From Acidobacteriota bacterium (GTDB lineage Bacteria > Acidobacteriota > Terriglobia > Bryobacterales > Bryobacteraceae): a DNA stretch of 40,777 nucleotides. A model generated the notes under the pieces. That model was not told the origin of the DNA. It worked only from the letters and a program-made list of their open reading frames with translations, and searched no databases. The stretch's first letter is position 1. Every line of letters begins with the position of its first letter. Positions 9,308 through 34,360 of the stretch are shown piece by piece. Location of the stretch: NCBI GenBank assembly GCA_016213775.1, contig JACQZR010000270.1:1-40777 (forward strand). Direction: 5' to 3'. A program made the translations under genes and the position numbers.

Positions 9308-10564
9308 TTGCCCACACGTATCCGCTTTCGAGTTCTGGCTTTCTGTATTGCCCTAGGCGTGGTCACCTACATGGACCGGGTCTGCATCTCGATAACCTCT
9401 CCGCAGATCGCCAAGGACCTTGGCCTGTCGGACCAGCAGATGGGATTCGTCTTCAGCATTTTCACTTTGGCCTATGGGGCCTTTGAGATTCCGACGGGGT
9501 GGTGGGGCGACCGCATCGGCACGCGATCCGTGCTCACCCGCATCGTCATCTGGTGGTCCTCGTTTACTATCCTCACTGCCACGGCCTTCAACTACGTCAG
9601 CCTGCTGGCGCTGCGGTTTCTGTTTGGTGTGGGCGAAGCGGGCGCATGGCCCAACGCCGCGCGAACATTTTCGCGCTGGTTTCCCATTTCCGAGCGCGGA
9701 CGCGCACAAGGCATCTTCTTTACAGGGGCGCATGGTGGAGGAGCGATCACTCCCATCCTGGTCACCACATTGCTCGGCTACACGAATTGGCGCGGGGTGT
9801 TTGTCGTCTTCGGCTGCATCGGCTTCGTTTGGGCCGTGGCGTGGTATAGCTGGTTTCGCAACGAGCCGCGCGATCATTCGGGCGTAAACGCGGCTGAGTT
9901 GGACCTGATCGAAAAGGGCAGGGGAGAAACGCCATCGCACGATCTGCACGGAGTTCCCTGGCGCCGCATTCTGGCCGACCGCAACGTGCAGCTTCTCTGC
10001 CTCCAATACTTCACGCAATCTTACGGGTTCTATTTCTTCATCACCTGGATGCCGTCCTATCTCGCCCGCGAGCGCGGATTCGCCTCCATGAAACTCGGCC
10101 TGTTCGCCGCCCTACCGTTCATATGCAGTGTGGGGGCTGATATCTTTGGCGGCATCACTACTGACGCCTTCAGCCGCCGCTTTGGCCTACGCAAAGGGAA
10201 GGCCATCGTCGCCGGAATGTCCTTCGTCTTTGCAGCCATCTGCATGCTTGCCGGTACGGCTGCCACTGACGCTAAATCGGCCGCCGTTCTGTTGTCGCTC
10301 GCCGCGGGTTGGGCCTGTTTTCTACTCGGCGCCGCGTGGAGCACGTGCCTCGACATCGCCGGTCCCAACACGGGAGTCGTCAGCGCCTTCATGAACACGG
10401 CTGGACAGGTGGGCGGGATGCTGAGCCCCGTGCTCATCGGATTCGTGCTCAATCAGTGGAAAGACTGGACGATGCCACTCTATCTCACCGGGGTGCTGTT
10501 CCTGGTTGGTGCGGCCTGCTGGCTGTTCATCGATCCGGGCCGCAAGATTCAGACCGGCTCGTAG
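9308..10564 (+). CDS. MFS transporter, anion:cation symporter (ACS) type
   Basis: A 418-residue inner-membrane permease with about 12 transmembrane helices. The first helix ends in Thr-Tyr-Met-Asp-Arg, the Asp-Arg pair typical of ACS-family sugar-acid symporters, and the loop Gly-Trp-Trp-Gly-Asp-Arg-Ile-Gly-Thr-Arg (about 64-73) is the MFS signature between helices 2 and 3. Close families import hexuronates, glucarate or galactonate by proton symport; the exact substrate cannot be decided. The start is a TTG at 9308, since the next ATG (9371) would delete most of helix 1. A TACAAT box at 9293-9298 lies only 10 bases before it. The 3' end overlaps the convergent FmdE-like gene by 16 bases. Confidence 0.88.
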   Translation: MPTRIRFRVLAFCIALGVVTYMDRVCISITSPQIAKDLGLSDQQMGFVFSIFTLAYGAFEIPTGWWGDRIGTRSVLTRIVIWWSSFTILTATAFNYVSLLALRFLFGVGEAGAWPNAARTFSRWFPISERGRAQGIFFTGAHGGGAITPILVTTLLGYTNWRGVFVVFGCIGFVWAVAWYSWFRNEPRDHSGVNAAELDLIEKGRGETPSHDLHGVPWRRILADRNVQLLCLQYFTQSYGFYFFITWMPSYLARERGFASMKLGLFAALPFICSVGADIFGGITTDAFSRRFGLRKGKAIVAGMSFVFAAICMLAGTAATDAKSAAVLLSLAAGWACFLLGAAWSTCLDIAGPNTGVVSAFMNTAGQVGGMLSPVLIGFVLNQWKDWTMPLYLTGVLFLVGAACWLFIDPGRKIQTGS

Positions 10565-31062: not shown

Positions 31063-31563
31063 ATGGCTGAGCCATTCTTGTCAGAGATCCGGATCATGAG
31101 TTTTGGGTTCGCCCCGAAAGGGTGGGCCCTGTGCAACGGGCAACTGTTGCCGATCAACCAGAATCAGGCGCTGTTTTCGCTGCTGGGGACGACCTACGGC
31201 GGCGACGGGCGCGTCAACTTCGCTTTGCCGAACCTACAGGGACGGGTGCCGATTCACTTCGGGAGCGGGCACATATTAGGGGAGGTTGGCGGCCAACAAG
31301 CACACACACTTTCCATCACTGAGCTGCCGACGCACGTGCACACGCTGATGGGCTCCAATACGTCGGCGACGACGAACACGGCGGACAACACACAGTTCCT
31401 CGCCCAACAGGCGAACACCTATACCGGGCCTAACAATCTGGCGGCGCTGGCGGCTAGTGAGATCGGCAATACCGGCGGCAGCCAGGCGCACTTGAACATG
31501 CAGCCCTTCCTGGTGCTGAATTTCAGCATCGCGCTGCAAGGCATTTTCCCGTCGCAGACCTAA
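31063..31563 (+). CDS. Tail-collar domain protein (MdpB-like), copy 1
   Basis: A 166-residue protein. Residues about 7-57 are the phage tail collar domain (Phe-Gly-Phe-Ala-Pro-Lys-Gly-Trp-Ala-Leu-Cys-Asn-Gly-Gln, then Gly-Thr-Thr-Tyr-Gly-Gly-Asp-Gly and Phe-Ala-Leu-Pro-Asn-Leu-Gln-Gly-Arg). The middle (about 75-130) is Thr/Asn/Ala-rich and the C-terminus returns to a conserved strand (Met-Gln-Pro-Phe-Leu-Val-Leu-Asn-Phe). The family includes microcystin-dependent protein MdpB and tail-fibre tips. There is no signal peptide. It heads a run of three paralogues spaced 12 and 9 bases apart. Such trimeric domains form fibres; absence of other phage genes argues for a host function. Export route is unknown. 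Confidence 0.9.
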   Translation: MAEPFLSEIRIMSFGFAPKGWALCNGQLLPINQNQALFSLLGTTYGGDGRVNFALPNLQGRVPIHFGSGHILGEVGGQQAHTLSITELPTHVHTLMGSNTSATTNTADNTQFLAQQANTYTGPNNLAALAASEIGNTGGSQAHLNMQPFLVLNFSIALQGIFPSQT

Positions 31564-31575
31564 GGAGACAAACAC

Positions 31576-32076
31576 ATGGCACAACCCTACATTGGTGAAA
31601 TTCGAATGTTCGCGGGCAACTTCGCCCCGGCGGGCTGGATGTTTTGCGAAGGGCAACTCGTGCCCATCTCCGAGTATGAAGCTCTCTTCAACCTGATTGG
31701 AACCACCTATGGCGGCGACGGCCAATCTACCTTCGCTCTTCCGGACCTGCGCGGCCGGGTGCCTATGCACTTTGGCGGCGGCTTCACGCAGGGCGAAACC
31801 GGCGGCGCGGAAGAAATCACTTTGACGGTCCAGCAGATTCCGGCTCACAGCCATCCGATGCTGGCCAGCAACGACGTGCCGGCGGGCTCAAATCCGGGAG
31901 GCAGCGTGACGGGACAGGCGGCGGCCAAACTGTACCGCGCCGGGAATCCGACGGTGACGCTCAACCCACAAGCGCTGACGCTGACGGGCGGGTCGCAGCC
32001 TCACACCAACTTCCAGCCGTATCTTTGCGTCGATTTCATTATTTCGCTGTTCGGGATTTTCCCGTCTCAAACATAA
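31576..32076 (+). CDS. Tail-collar domain protein (MdpB-like), copy 2
   Basis: A 166-residue paralogue of the gene just upstream. The collar domain is complete (Phe-Ala-Pro-Ala-Gly-Trp-Met-Phe-Cys-Glu-Gly-Gln; Gly-Thr-Thr-Tyr-Gly-Gly-Asp-Gly; Leu-Pro-Asp-Leu-Arg-Gly-Arg), followed by Gly-Glu-Thr-Gly-Gly-Ala-Glu and a His-Ser-His pair; the middle is divergent and Pro/Gly-rich. The C-terminal strand ends Phe-Pro-Ser-Gln-Thr, the same ending as copy 1. AAGGAG lies 9 bases before the ATG, a much better ribosome site than that of copy 1, so this copy may be made in larger amount. Having different central parts but equal ends suggests subunits of a mixed fibre or tip. Confidence 0.9.
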   Translation: MAQPYIGEIRMFAGNFAPAGWMFCEGQLVPISEYEALFNLIGTTYGGDGQSTFALPDLRGRVPMHFGGGFTQGETGGAEEITLTVQQIPAHSHPMLASNDVPAGSNPGGSVTGQAAAKLYRAGNPTVTLNPQALTLTGGSQPHTNFQPYLCVDFIISLFGIFPSQT

Positions 32077-32085
32077 GGAGAAACC

Positions 32086-32604
32086 ATGGATCCCTTCGTT
32101 GCAGAAATTCGCATCTTCCCTTTCAACTTCGCCCCCAAAGGCTGGGCATTTTGTAATGGGCAGATTATGCCGTTGAGCCAGAACACGGCCCTCTTTTCAC
32201 TCCTTGGCACCACCTACGGTGGAGACGGAAAATCGAACTTCGCTCTTCCGAACATGCAAGGGAATGTGCCGATGCACCCTGGGCAGGGTCCGGGGCTTTC
32301 GTTGCATGACCTGGGTGAGACCGGTGGTAGTCAGACGGTTTCGCTGCTCCAATCGGAAATGCCTTCTCATAACCACAGTGTGGGAGCGCAGACCGTTCCG
32401 CTGGGTGGCCTGGGCACCCCGGCGGGGAATACGCTCAGCCGTCCGGCCAGCGGGAACCTCTACTCGCCGTCGGCTCCGCAAATCGCCATGAATGAGAACG
32501 CCATCGCCCCGGCGGGTGGTGGTCAACCCCACAACAACATGCAGCCGTATCTCACCTTGAACTTCTGCATTGCGTTGCAAGGTGTGTATCCGCCACGCAC
32601 CTGA
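32086..32604 (+). CDS. Tail-collar domain protein (MdpB-like), copy 3
   Basis: A 172-residue third paralogue. Its collar domain (Phe-Ala-Pro-Lys-Gly-Trp-Ala-Phe-Cys-Asn-Gly-Gln; Gly-Thr-Thr-Tyr-Gly-Gly-Asp-Gly; Phe-Ala-Leu-Pro-Asn-Met-Gln-Gly) is closer to copy 1 than to copy 2. It has a short insert after the domain (His-Pro-Gly-Gln-Gly-Pro-Gly-Leu-Ser-Leu) and a His-Asn-His pair. An AAGGAG site precedes the ATG. The three genes and the following acetyltransferase gene are separated by 12, 9 and 12 bases, so one transcript is likely. The triple arrangement with a GNAT gene next to it is seen in various bacteria as far as I recall, without an agreed function. Confidence 0.9.
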   Translation: MDPFVAEIRIFPFNFAPKGWAFCNGQIMPLSQNTALFSLLGTTYGGDGKSNFALPNMQGNVPMHPGQGPGLSLHDLGETGGSQTVSLLQSEMPSHNHSVGAQTVPLGGLGTPAGNTLSRPASGNLYSPSAPQIAMNENAIAPAGGGQPHNNMQPYLTLNFCIALQGVYPPRT

Positions 32605-33108: not shown

Positions 33109-33407
33109 TTGAAGACCGCTTCGTAGAGGAAGCCGGCAGTGTCGCGGCCTACCGGCACGAGGAAGATCTCGAGCGTTCCGGTGTGCTCGTTGCGTATGGG
33201 ATAGGTGCGCTGCTGCAGGAAGGGATCGAGCGGGCCGCGGAAGACGAGCGAGAAGGGCTCGCGCGGTTCTCCTTCCACCGATTTGAGGCGGCGGCATTCC
33301 ACCAGCTTCAGTTCCACGGTGGTGGATTCGATGAGAAAGGTTTCGTTGAGGCGGGGCTCAAACAGGGCTCGGTCCAGGAGTTCAGGCATGATGGGCGAAT
33401 GCGTCAT
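33105..33407 (-). CDS. DUF6916-like small protein
   Basis: A 100-residue protein. The sequence Leu-Phe-Glu-Pro-Arg-Leu-Asn-Glu-Thr-Phe, Arg-Glu-Pro-Phe-Ser-Leu-Val-Phe-Arg-Gly-Pro and the end Glu-Ile-Phe-Leu-Val-Pro-Val-Gly ... Tyr-Glu-Ala-Val-Phe-Asn match my recollection of DUF6916, a small beta-rich family often encoded beside tail-collar genes. There is no signal peptide. ATG 33407 is used; an in-frame ATG at 33389 starts closer to the conserved part and a TTAAAAT box overlapping 33407 would fit that later start. It is convergent with and overlaps the acetyltransferase gene by four bases, which closes the block. A role with the collar proteins, for example as chaperone or cap, is inference. 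Confidence 0.72.
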   Translation of the reverse strand: MTHSPIMPELLDRALFEPRLNETFLIESTTVELKLVECRRLKSVEGEPREPFSLVFRGPLDPFLQQRTYPIRNEHTGTLEIFLVPVGRDTAGFLYEAVFN

Positions 33408-33424
33408 TTTAACAGAGTGAATCG

Positions 33425-33458
33425 GCGCCCGGCCAACTTTTTACGGAAGGCCGGGCGC
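33425..33458 (-). terminator. GC-rich hairpin between the cysteine-rich gene and the DUF6916-like gene
   Basis: GCGCCCGGCC (33425-33434) pairs perfectly with GGCCGGGCGC (33449-33458) around a 14-base loop. It lies 7 bases beyond the stop of the minus-strand cysteine-rich gene, the position of a terminator, although no T-tract follows. Confidence 0.5.
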
Positions 33459-33465
33459 GGGTGTT

Positions 33466-33612
33466 TCACGCGCCTGCCGGTGCGGGCGCACAGCCGCAGT
33501 TGCAGGAGCATTGCTGGCTCTGGCTTTCGCCGGAGGCGCAGTTGCACGAACAGTCCTGGCACTGGCAGCCGACGCAGCAGGCCGTGTTGTTGTTGGGTGT
33601 TGTGTTGTTCAT
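33466..33612 (-). CDS. 48-residue cysteine-rich, metallothionein-like protein
   Basis: A short frame, ATG at 33612 to TGA at 33466. It has 11 cysteines in 48 residues: Cys12, 13, 16, 18, 21, 23, 25, 35, 37, 39 and 41, mostly as Cys-x-Cys pairs such as Cys-Ser-Cys-Asn-Cys, which occurs twice. The first 10 residues are Asn/Thr-rich and the tail is Ala/Pro-rich. Such Cys-x-Cys clusters bind soft metals (Zn, Cu, Cd) or act as a thiol buffer. It is not clearly related to any bacterial metallothionein I can name. The gene is divergent from an ECF sigma gene whose product also ends in a cysteine cluster, and an ECF-like promoter lies 9 bases before its ATG. The density of cysteine in this frame only supports true coding. 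There is no good ribosome site, so a short-leader transcript is likely. Confidence 0.68.
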   Translation of the reverse strand: MNNTTPNNNTACCVGCQCQDCSCNCASGESQSQQCSCNCGCAPAPAGA

Positions 33613-33621
33613 GCCCCTGAT

Positions 33622-33647
33622 GACGAAGCGGCCCCAAAAACCTTACA
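33622..33647 (-). promoter_or_regulatory. ECF-type promoter for the cysteine-rich gene
   Basis: On the minus strand TGTAAG (33647-33642) is followed by exactly 16 bases and CGTC (33625-33622), the layout of ECF sigma promoters (a -35 box containing TGTAA and a CGTC -10 box). The cysteine-rich ATG begins 9 bases further, so the transcript would have almost no leader. The box is inside the 43-base gap between the two divergent starts, where an autoregulated sigma factor would be expected to act. Confidence 0.45.
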
Positions 33648-33655
33648 GTGGGGTT

Positions 33656-34189
33656 ATGGAAAATTCGGCGGTTATGGAGCAGTTGGTGGAGAGCCACCGG
33701 AAGTTTCTCGCGTTTTTGGAGAAGCGGGTGGAATCGCGCGAGGTGGCCGAGGATATCCTGCAAGCGGCGTTTGTGCGCGGGTTGGAGAGCGGCGCGGAGT
33801 TGCGCGAGGAGGAGAACGCGGTGGCGTGGTTCTATCGGATCCTGCGCAATGCGGTGATTGATCATTACCGGCAGCGCGGGGCGTCGGCGCGTGCGTTGGA
33901 GACCTGGGGCAGGGAATTCGCGGAGAGGCCGGAGGCGGATGTGCGCGGGGAGATTTGCGGGTGTCTCGGTGGATTGATTGACGGGTTGAAGGCGGAGTAT
34001 CGCGAGGCTTTGCAGGTGGTGGATCTCGGTGAGGGTTCATTGCGGGAGCTGGCGGAGAGGGCGTCAATTACGGAGGGGAATGCCGCGGTGCGGGTGCACC
34101 GGGCGCGGGCGGCGTTGAGGGCAGCCATGGTGAAGTGTTGCGGCACCTGCGCCGAGCACGGGTGTGTGGAGTGCGGCTGTTCGCGTTGA
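33656..34189 (+). CDS. ECF sigma factor with C-terminal cysteine cluster
   Basis: A 177-residue RNA polymerase sigma factor. Residues about 8-75 are sigma region 2 (Ala-Glu-Asp-Ile-Leu-Gln-Ala-Ala-Phe and Trp-Phe-Tyr-Arg-Ile-Leu-Arg-Asn-Ala), and about 105-158 are region 4 (Glu-Leu-Ala-Glu-Arg-Ala ... Val-Arg-Val-His-Arg-Ala-Arg helix-turn-helix). The final 17 residues hold Cys161, Cys162, Cys165, His168, Cys170, Cys173 and Cys175, a probable zinc or metal site that could make the factor sense metal or thiol stress without a separate anti-sigma gene, none of which is adjacent. I begin at ATG 33656; the frame is open upstream but that part overlaps the cysteine-rich gene in antisense. Divergent to the cysteine-rich gene. 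Confidence 0.85.
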   Translation: MENSAVMEQLVESHRKFLAFLEKRVESREVAEDILQAAFVRGLESGAELREEENAVAWFYRILRNAVIDHYRQRGASARALETWGREFAERPEADVRGEICGCLGGLIDGLKAEYREALQVVDLGEGSLRELAERASITEGNAAVRVHRARAALRAAMVKCCGTCAEHGCVECGCSR

Positions 34190-34212
34190 GAGGTAAGGCA
34201 ACAGCAAGAATA

Positions 34213-34293
34213 TCTCTCACGGAGGACACGGAGATCACGGAGCCAAACCAACCTGATCTGTCTCCGTGACCTCCGTGCGCTCCGTGTGAAAGA
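34213..34293. repeat. Long imperfect inverted repeat with CACGGAG words
   Basis: The left arm (34213-34242) carries CACGGAG three times in spirit (CACGGAGGA, CACGGAGAT, CACGGAG) and the right arm (34262-34293) carries the complement CTCCGTG in the same spacing. With a 19-base loop this folds into a stem of nearly 30 base pairs. Similar CACGGAG/CTCCGTG palindromes are dispersed in many environmental bacterial genomes. It follows the ECF sigma gene by 23 bases and may serve as a transcript end. Confidence 0.7.
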
Positions 34294-34360
34294 AAAACGC
34301 CCGGACAATATGGAAATCCGAAGGAGGCAGGCGGTGTCCAGATTAGTACTCATCTAAATC

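Follow-up and report, generated by a model that had tools for sequence, protein, structure and literature searches.

In the 40,777-nt stretch of DNA analyzed here (the window), a very short cysteine-rich reading frame faces the gene of an ECF sigma factor. Is the short frame a gene, and is it controlled by the sigma factor next to it? The initial annotation had proposed a self-contained circuit in which the sigma factor senses metal through its own tail, acts without an anti-sigma factor and induces the small gene. Judged from the sequence, this proposal is supported by cysteines that align with those of the copper-responsive sigma factor CorE and by an ECF-type promoter between the genes. We therefore consider it highly probable that a CorE-type one-component metal sensor acts on the divergent promoter of a 48-aa metallothionein-like buffer, which in turn would exert feedback on the sigma factor.

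Structure of the locus

The following features were assigned; the CorE match is described below.

33425..33458, minus strand: G+C-rich 10-bp hairpin directly 3' of the small-gene stop (z -2.54 for 33408-33480)
33466..33612, minus strand: small Cys-rich, metallothionein-like protein of 48 aa with 11 Cys (ORF translation)
33622..33647, minus strand: ECF-type promoter of the small gene with -35 TGTAAGGTTT, 12-nt spacer and -10 CGTC
33656..34189, plus strand: CorE-like ECF sigma factor of 177 aa with sigma-70 regions 2 and 4
33956..33964, plus strand: CxC of the sigma2-sigma4 linker (C101-G-C103), whose counterpart in the CorE match is C120-x-C122
34136..34180, plus strand: Cys-rich tail, C161 C162-x2-C165-x4-C170-x2-C173-x-C175, with H168

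The start codons of both genes are divergent and separated by a gap of 43 bp (33613-33655). The sigma frame stays open 5' of 33656 and runs across the small gene. Since the homology of the sigma factor to its relatives starts within a few residues of 33656, the two genes do not overlap. A GNAT gene (32617), a DUF6916 gene (33105) and a gene for a patatin-like protein (34517) are flanking the pair, and the initial annotation was right that no anti-sigma gene is adjacent. The 48-residue frame with 11 cysteines and the divergent sigma factor with six cysteines and one histidine in its last 17 residues were found as it had described them. The linker CxC and the intergenic promoter are features that it did not contain.

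Directly after the sigma gene a dispersed repeat of approximately 106 bp is located (34195-34300, plus strand), which includes a CACGGAG/CTCCGTG imperfect palindrome. At least 28 other matches were found in the genome (40 of 89 candidates scored), many of them 94-98% identical; three of the 28 are the opposite strand of places already counted. Near the DUF6916 gene, three tandem genes (31063-32604, plus strand) encode similar proteins of 166-172 aa that by eye resemble what we take to be phage-tail-collar-type proteins.

The small cysteine-rich gene

Translation of the minus-strand frame 33466-33612 gives MNNTTPNNNTACCVGCQCQDCSCNCASGESQSQQCSCNCGCAPAPAGA. Cysteine makes up 11 of its 48 residues (23%), and F, W, Y and H are all absent. 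The protein thereby shows the traits of the metallothionein functional class: it is small, Cys-rich and free of aromatic residues, and carries CxC clusters.

Fixed criteria were used to define comparable small ORFs (an ATG start codon, a length of 20-90 aa, three or more CxC and seven or more Cys within 32 residues). In the 40.8-kb window 33466-33612 was the single ORF of this kind, and 36 control loci comprising 115,149 bp contained none. A profile of the small-ORF family, which included the window sequence, had its sole match in the whole genome at the same place (E 3.9e-10). Searches of Pfam, NCBIfam and PDB gave no useful match for the window small protein. Among 15 family members scanned, one reached Metallothio_2 (E 0.041) and none an NCBIfam model. 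The frame is a real gene, beyond chance, and its product is best read, from composition and cysteine pattern, as an undescribed metallothionein-like protein. The hairpin behind the small gene has no T run and is thus only a possible terminator; a terminator consensus scan at the 3' end of the small gene found none.

Relationship of the sigma factor to CorE

Two Pfam models recognized the sigma factor above their cut-offs, Sigma70_r2 with E 3.4e-11 and Sigma70_r4_2 with E 2.4e-7. Its C-terminal tail reads ..VKCCGTCAEHGCVECGCSR. Membership in SigZ (TIGR02959) was rejected, since the score of 106.1 bits is below the curated cut-off of 168.65.

According to sections of a review (PMC8999054), a tail and a linker CxC, both essential, mark CorE and CorE2 of Myxococcus xanthus. 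For comparison, a CorE match was obtained by searching 39 genomes in the family of an Archangium relative. In one of these (G548) a protein of 211 residues carried Cys at 181, 184, 189, 192, 194 and 206 and additionally the linker C120-x-C122. The same six tail positions are given for CorE in part of PMC3107203, and by this pattern we take the protein for CorE itself or a very close copy of it. The genome G548 also encodes a second sigma factor with a CorE2-type tail (CC-x3-C-x2-C-x-C); none of the start codons tried for it yields the published CorE2 numbering.

The window sigma factor shared 53% identity with the CorE match over 173 aa (E 1e-60). C162, C165, C170, C173 and C175 align with C181, C184, C189, C192 and C194 of CorE, respectively, and the linker pair C101-G-C103 corresponds to CQC in the CorE match. 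In 52 aligned sequences, including that of the window, C101, C103, C162, C165, C173 and C175 were invariant and C170 was at least 90% conserved. CorE positions 181, 184, 192 and 194 are described as invariant in the 21 first-described members (PMC3107203, in part); in the window these four are present as C162, C165, C173 and C175. Sections of the same paper demonstrate by tail deletion and point mutation that the CorE tail controls the copper response, which was abolished when most of the tail was deleted, and name C189 as the chief residue for activation.

Like CorE and CorE2, the window protein is an ECF sigma factor without an anti-sigma factor and with a CxC in the linker; five of its tail cysteines match those of CorE in place. 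In contrast to CorE it ends before C206 and has an additional C161 ahead of the first tail position. By these alignments it is a sigma factor of the CorE type (ECF44, now within ECF238) and hence a known kind of sensor. The AlphaFold2 model of the sigma factor (mean pLDDT 83.1, pTM 0.48) does not place the tail confidently (pLDDT 43 in the last block) and is therefore silent on tail and linker sharing one metal site.

Distribution of the gene pair

Loci were collected by sigma alignment alone. The best 80 matches in a collection with one genome per species gave 78 loci, and with the window and a locus of genome G100 a total of 80 was reached. Linker and tail were intact in 72. Among the matches listed, 41 of these 72 CorE-like loci carried a small Cys-rich ORF, and 31 had none by our criteria. 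In 37 loci the ORF lay upstream of the sigma gene at a distance of at most 400 nt, and in two (L057, L065) it lay at most 350 nt downstream; L059 and L067 have an ORF of the same family farther away. Within the 830,362 bp of fetched loci only three other ORFs satisfied the criteria, two of them being the L059 and L067 copies.

By our labels 28 of the 41 small ORFs are divergent from the sigma gene, nine precede it on the same strand and four lie downstream. The divergent form was found in all 13 Nitrospira loci among the 72 and in many Bryobacterales. The same-strand (operon) form encodes a CPC-rich peptide of approximately 23-53 residues, depending on the start chosen, and occurred mainly in Granulicella, Edaphobacter and their kin; L104, L108, L110 and L113 are examples from these two genera. 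Among the nearest relatives, counted outside the window's own genome, four of 11 sigma loci (L042, L044, L047, L050) had a divergent small ORF and seven had none. A close sigma factor of the CorE-like kind (E <1e-50) was present in 10 of the 101 genomes searched, the window's own included.

The Nitrospira-type small protein, of 53 aa in Nitrospira, is under purifying selection. In 15 copies, including L070 (binned as Bryobacterales) and L096 (sigma frame broken), pN was lower than pS in all 105 pairs (medians 0.117 and 0.459, respectively), which is the codon conservation that the initial annotation had suggested looking for. Cysteine was invariant in 12 of 12 columns, and both TGC and TGT were used in nine of them. 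Small ORFs of other groups share 28-39% identity with that of the window; given their short length and Cys richness, homology across the groups is not provable by sequence.

In a tree of 74 sigma factors, made by a quick method with 29 of 71 inner branches open, the loci without small ORF clustered (8 changes vs a shuffled mean of 24.5). The initial annotation would have regarded the small gene as an artefact if relatives kept the sigma gene and lost the frame or its cysteines. This pattern holds in part: 31 of the 72 loci are without the ORF, but the 41 others keep the frame, the cysteines and mostly the promoter.

Irregular loci were seen as well. In L070 (MAG SJ717) the sigma factor branches within the Nitrospira clade, and the small ORF is likewise of Nitrospira type, which reflects either a recent transfer or a wrongly binned contig. 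Broken or cut sigma frames near motif copies were present in L096, L090, L121 and L123; these are due to either decay or assembly error.

The promoter between the genes

The bases between the start codons contain ACTGTAAGGTTT-N12-CGTC, directed at the small gene. Searches were made with a strict motif, TGTAA[G/T]GTT-N13-CGTC (TGTAAKGTT-N13-CGTC), and a loose motif, TGTAA[G/T/A][G/T]-N15-CGTC, both at the exact span of 26 nt. The loose motif was located at most 170 nt upstream of 35 of the 41 small ORFs, 32 of which had the strict form. Six small ORFs were without it within this distance; three of these (L065, L104, L106) have a near version. The motif with exact spacing was absent from 27 control loci (88,357 bp). 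TGTAAG..CGTC sites near the CorE match share the 26-nt span of the window promoter.

The 10.96-Mb genome of the window contains one perfect strict site, that at 33622-33647. Besides this perfect site there were nine with one mismatch, vs 18 sites for a reversed-pattern control. None of the nine precedes an evident metal gene, and further targets in this genome were rejected. P-type ATPase genes were rejected as targets, too: frames were recovered for six of the seven places in the genome (L200 is missing), and none of the six, the copper-type L196 included, had the motif upstream. The window contains another loose match (9699-9724, minus strand), which was discarded, as it lies inside a 419-codon frame of the opposite strand and before no likely gene.

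The strict motif was present in 19 of the 23 genomes reached from the loci (once in 14, twice in four and three times in one), with a total of 25 sites vs four for the reversed pattern. The genome of Nitrospira defluvii is among the 14 with one site. Some of the extra sites precede a small ORF or copper-type genes; no evident metal gene follows those at L153, L162 and L163. In 396 genomes across the phylum, a promoter-first search with the DNA motif as query and neither protein used gave two matches vs one for the reversed-pattern control. One is the window site; the other lies in genome G478, ahead of a Cys-rich peptide of 32 aa and, behind this peptide, a CorE-like sigma gene. The motif and its place before the small ORFs indicate that the sigma factor very probably turns on the small gene.

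In the window CGTC ends 9 nt before the ATG, compared to approximately 50 nt in most relatives. With the -10 element so close, the small-gene mRNA would be nearly leaderless. The promoter of the sigma gene itself has to overlap that of the small gene or to sit inside the small gene, because the 43-bp gap carries the small-gene promoter; scanning 33380-33720 for sigma-70 promoters gave no hit. No plus-strand copy of the motif was found in the window, and autoregulation of the sigma gene by the same motif was rejected. More generally, nothing pointing to autoregulation through this motif was found for the divergent form. In the operon form peptide and sigma gene both lie behind the promoter, and the sigma factor would raise its own level.

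Genes behind related promoters

The loose motif was present in 19 of the 31 loci without small ORF and absent from the fetched DNA in 12. In 15 of the 31 it precedes copper-type genes, most of which were named by eye. The genes behind the motif were:

P-type ATPase (mostly by eye): L075, L084, L085, L092, L102, L109, L112
Cupredoxin-like protein (mostly by eye): L080, L081, L083, L086, L087, L088, L116
HMA protein (Pfam): L101
24-residue peptide with 6 Cys, slightly under the criteria: L091
No clear copper-type gene: L097, L111, L118

Of 10 proteins encoded behind motif copies and searched against Pfam, three were identified as ATPases with heavy-metal-binding domains (L084, L092, L102), one as a cupredoxin (L080) and one by its HMA domain (L101). 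Two proteins had no match, and the remaining three matched SnoaL_5, DJ-1/PEMT and DUF4177.

These loci also bear on the role of the small protein. Instead of being mainly a buffer it might be a partner of the sigma factor, either as a chaperone loading the tail or as a titrator removing metal from the tail and shutting the sigma factor off. The linkage of small gene and sigma gene in several bacterial groups and the position of the peptide before the sigma gene in the operon form would suit such a role, and so would the string CGTC that is common to the Nitrospira-type small proteins and the sigma tail, although this string is short. However, 31 of 72 like sigma factors lack such an ORF in the fetched DNA, with copper-type genes behind the motif in 15 cases; the sigma factor therefore need not depend on it. 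We regard a partner role as unlikely and favor the buffer, which may have a side role of this kind.

The predicted signal

Copper is the likeliest signal, as suggested by the CorE-type spacing of the cysteines and the copper genes behind related promoters. The window sigma factor has C170 at the place of CorE Cys189 and Ala166 at the place of Cys174 of CorE2. Ala at the CorE2-specific Cys place thus predicts a response to copper. A Nitrospira genome that carries the small gene has a further site, behind which an HMA chaperone-like gene and then a gene for a CopA-like ATPase are located. Of the four TGTAAG-N16-CGTC sites close to the CorE match, two (a count without chance control) precede a CopA-like ATPase and an HMA protein. 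This fits the CorE targets in the sections covered of PMC3107203, where the gene of an HMA protein is CorE-dependent and copA probably partly so.

The same circuit could instead answer zinc, cadmium or general thiol/redox stress, with the small protein as a Zn/Cd buffer. CorE-dependent expression is also raised by Cd and Zn, if less strongly (PMC8999054, PMC9023288, PMC3107203, each in part), and parts of PMC9023288 describe CorE2 as a Cd/Zn sensor whose specificity is said to be set by an extra tail Cys. The tail in the window has the CorE spacing, with Ala at just that place, and the related promoters precede copper-type ATPases, cupredoxins and the HMA chaperone-like and CopA-like ATPase genes. 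CxC clusters in general bind Zn and Cd besides Cu(I). On balance a signal other than copper appears improbable.

Proposed circuit

In the copper circuit that we favor, excess cytoplasmic metal, most probably copper, would bind to the cysteines in tail and linker of the sigma factor. The metal-bound sigma factor could then work with RNA polymerase and would start transcription of the divergent small gene at the TGTAAGGTTT-N12-CGTC promoter. The 48-aa metallothionein-like product is predicted to bind metal through clustered thiolates, leaving less free metal to activate the sigma factor. In this way the cell may make its own metal sponge as copper rises.

That the small frame is a chance antisense-like frame without product, for which the lack of a useful family-model or solved-structure match and a window start codon almost at the expected transcript start might speak, is ruled out for all practical purposes by its recurrence (a comparable ORF in 41 of 72 loci), by purifying selection and invariant cysteines in the Nitrospira type and by a promoter of its own in 35 of the 41.

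More speculatively, CorE-type sigma factors might be portable copper modules of one sigma factor and one promoter with a swappable output (pump, cupredoxin or metallothionein). The module would have been reduced, in Nitrospira and Bryobacterales, to the sensor and a single undescribed metallothionein, with the small protein taking metal from the tail of the sigma factor. We put this forward as a tentative and rather doubtful extension.

Comparison with known systems

Divergent genes for a metallothionein and a metal-sensing regulator are presumably also found in SmtA/SmtB of cyanobacteria. SmtB, however, is a repressor and responds to Zn/Cd. A Pfam family exists for bacterial SmtA-type proteins, whereas the small protein of the window matches no Pfam metallothionein family. 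In Mycobacterium tuberculosis the copper metallothionein MymT is under RicR (PMC10141476, in part). As in the window, a copper-protective metallothionein gene is under a copper regulator, but RicR is a CsoR homologue and the window regulator a sigma factor; the two were likened by description. OrbS of Burkholderia cenocepacia is likewise an ECF sigma factor with an on-board Cys tail responding to metal. It differs in that Fe(II) turns it off, in the Cys spacing and in its iron uptake genes (PMC9023288, in part).

CorE is reported to target copper ATPases, a multicopper oxidase and an HMA protein, compared to one detectable target in the window, the metallothionein-like gene. NIDE1902 of Nitrospira defluvii is in the list of tailed sigma factors of the CorE paper (PMC3107203), and our locus L066 from this species is probably the NIDE1902 gene. 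The covered sections of that paper mention copper-handling neighbor genes and no small Cys-rich gene. Those of PMC10141476 mention a CorE-like sigma factor and a metallothionein, in separate passages. A literature search, with most subscription-journal papers outside its scope, found no report pairing a CorE-like sigma factor with a metallothionein. As the sensor is of a known kind, and neither a model match nor a report of the pairing was found, the new part is a CorE-type copper circuit with a metallothionein-like output.

Hereby a metallothionein-like family that is absent from the tested Pfam and NCBIfam models gains a regulator and a likely metal. The locus also illustrates that very small genes can be found via the promoter of an alternative sigma factor, and it offers a clean test case with one sigma factor, one promoter and one detectable target, without an adjacent anti-sigma gene. 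It is predicted that CorE-type regulation extends beyond the pump, oxidase and HMA genes of the CorE paper. Nitrospira oxidise nitrite in water treatment and soil, settings in which copper is needed as well as toxic; for this reason a copper-buffer gene missed by family models is of practical interest.

Further candidate targets

Several proteins of other kinds were encountered behind the motif. L054 (6555-7136, minus strand) encodes a repeat protein that matches DUF4177 and is preceded by a motif copy of its own, and by eye a similar protein follows the small ORF in L072 (215-811, minus strand). This repeat protein is a possible further member of the regulon. In genome G503, proteins alike by eye (..GTLxGxDTR....EGxxNEHYEE..) follow the motif in L161 and L143, one of them after a small ORF; Pfam gave no match for that of L161. 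Finally, in L159 (genome G498, Nitrospira) the motif precedes a protein of 198 aa with a His-rich start and a membrane-bound look, which is a candidate for a further target.
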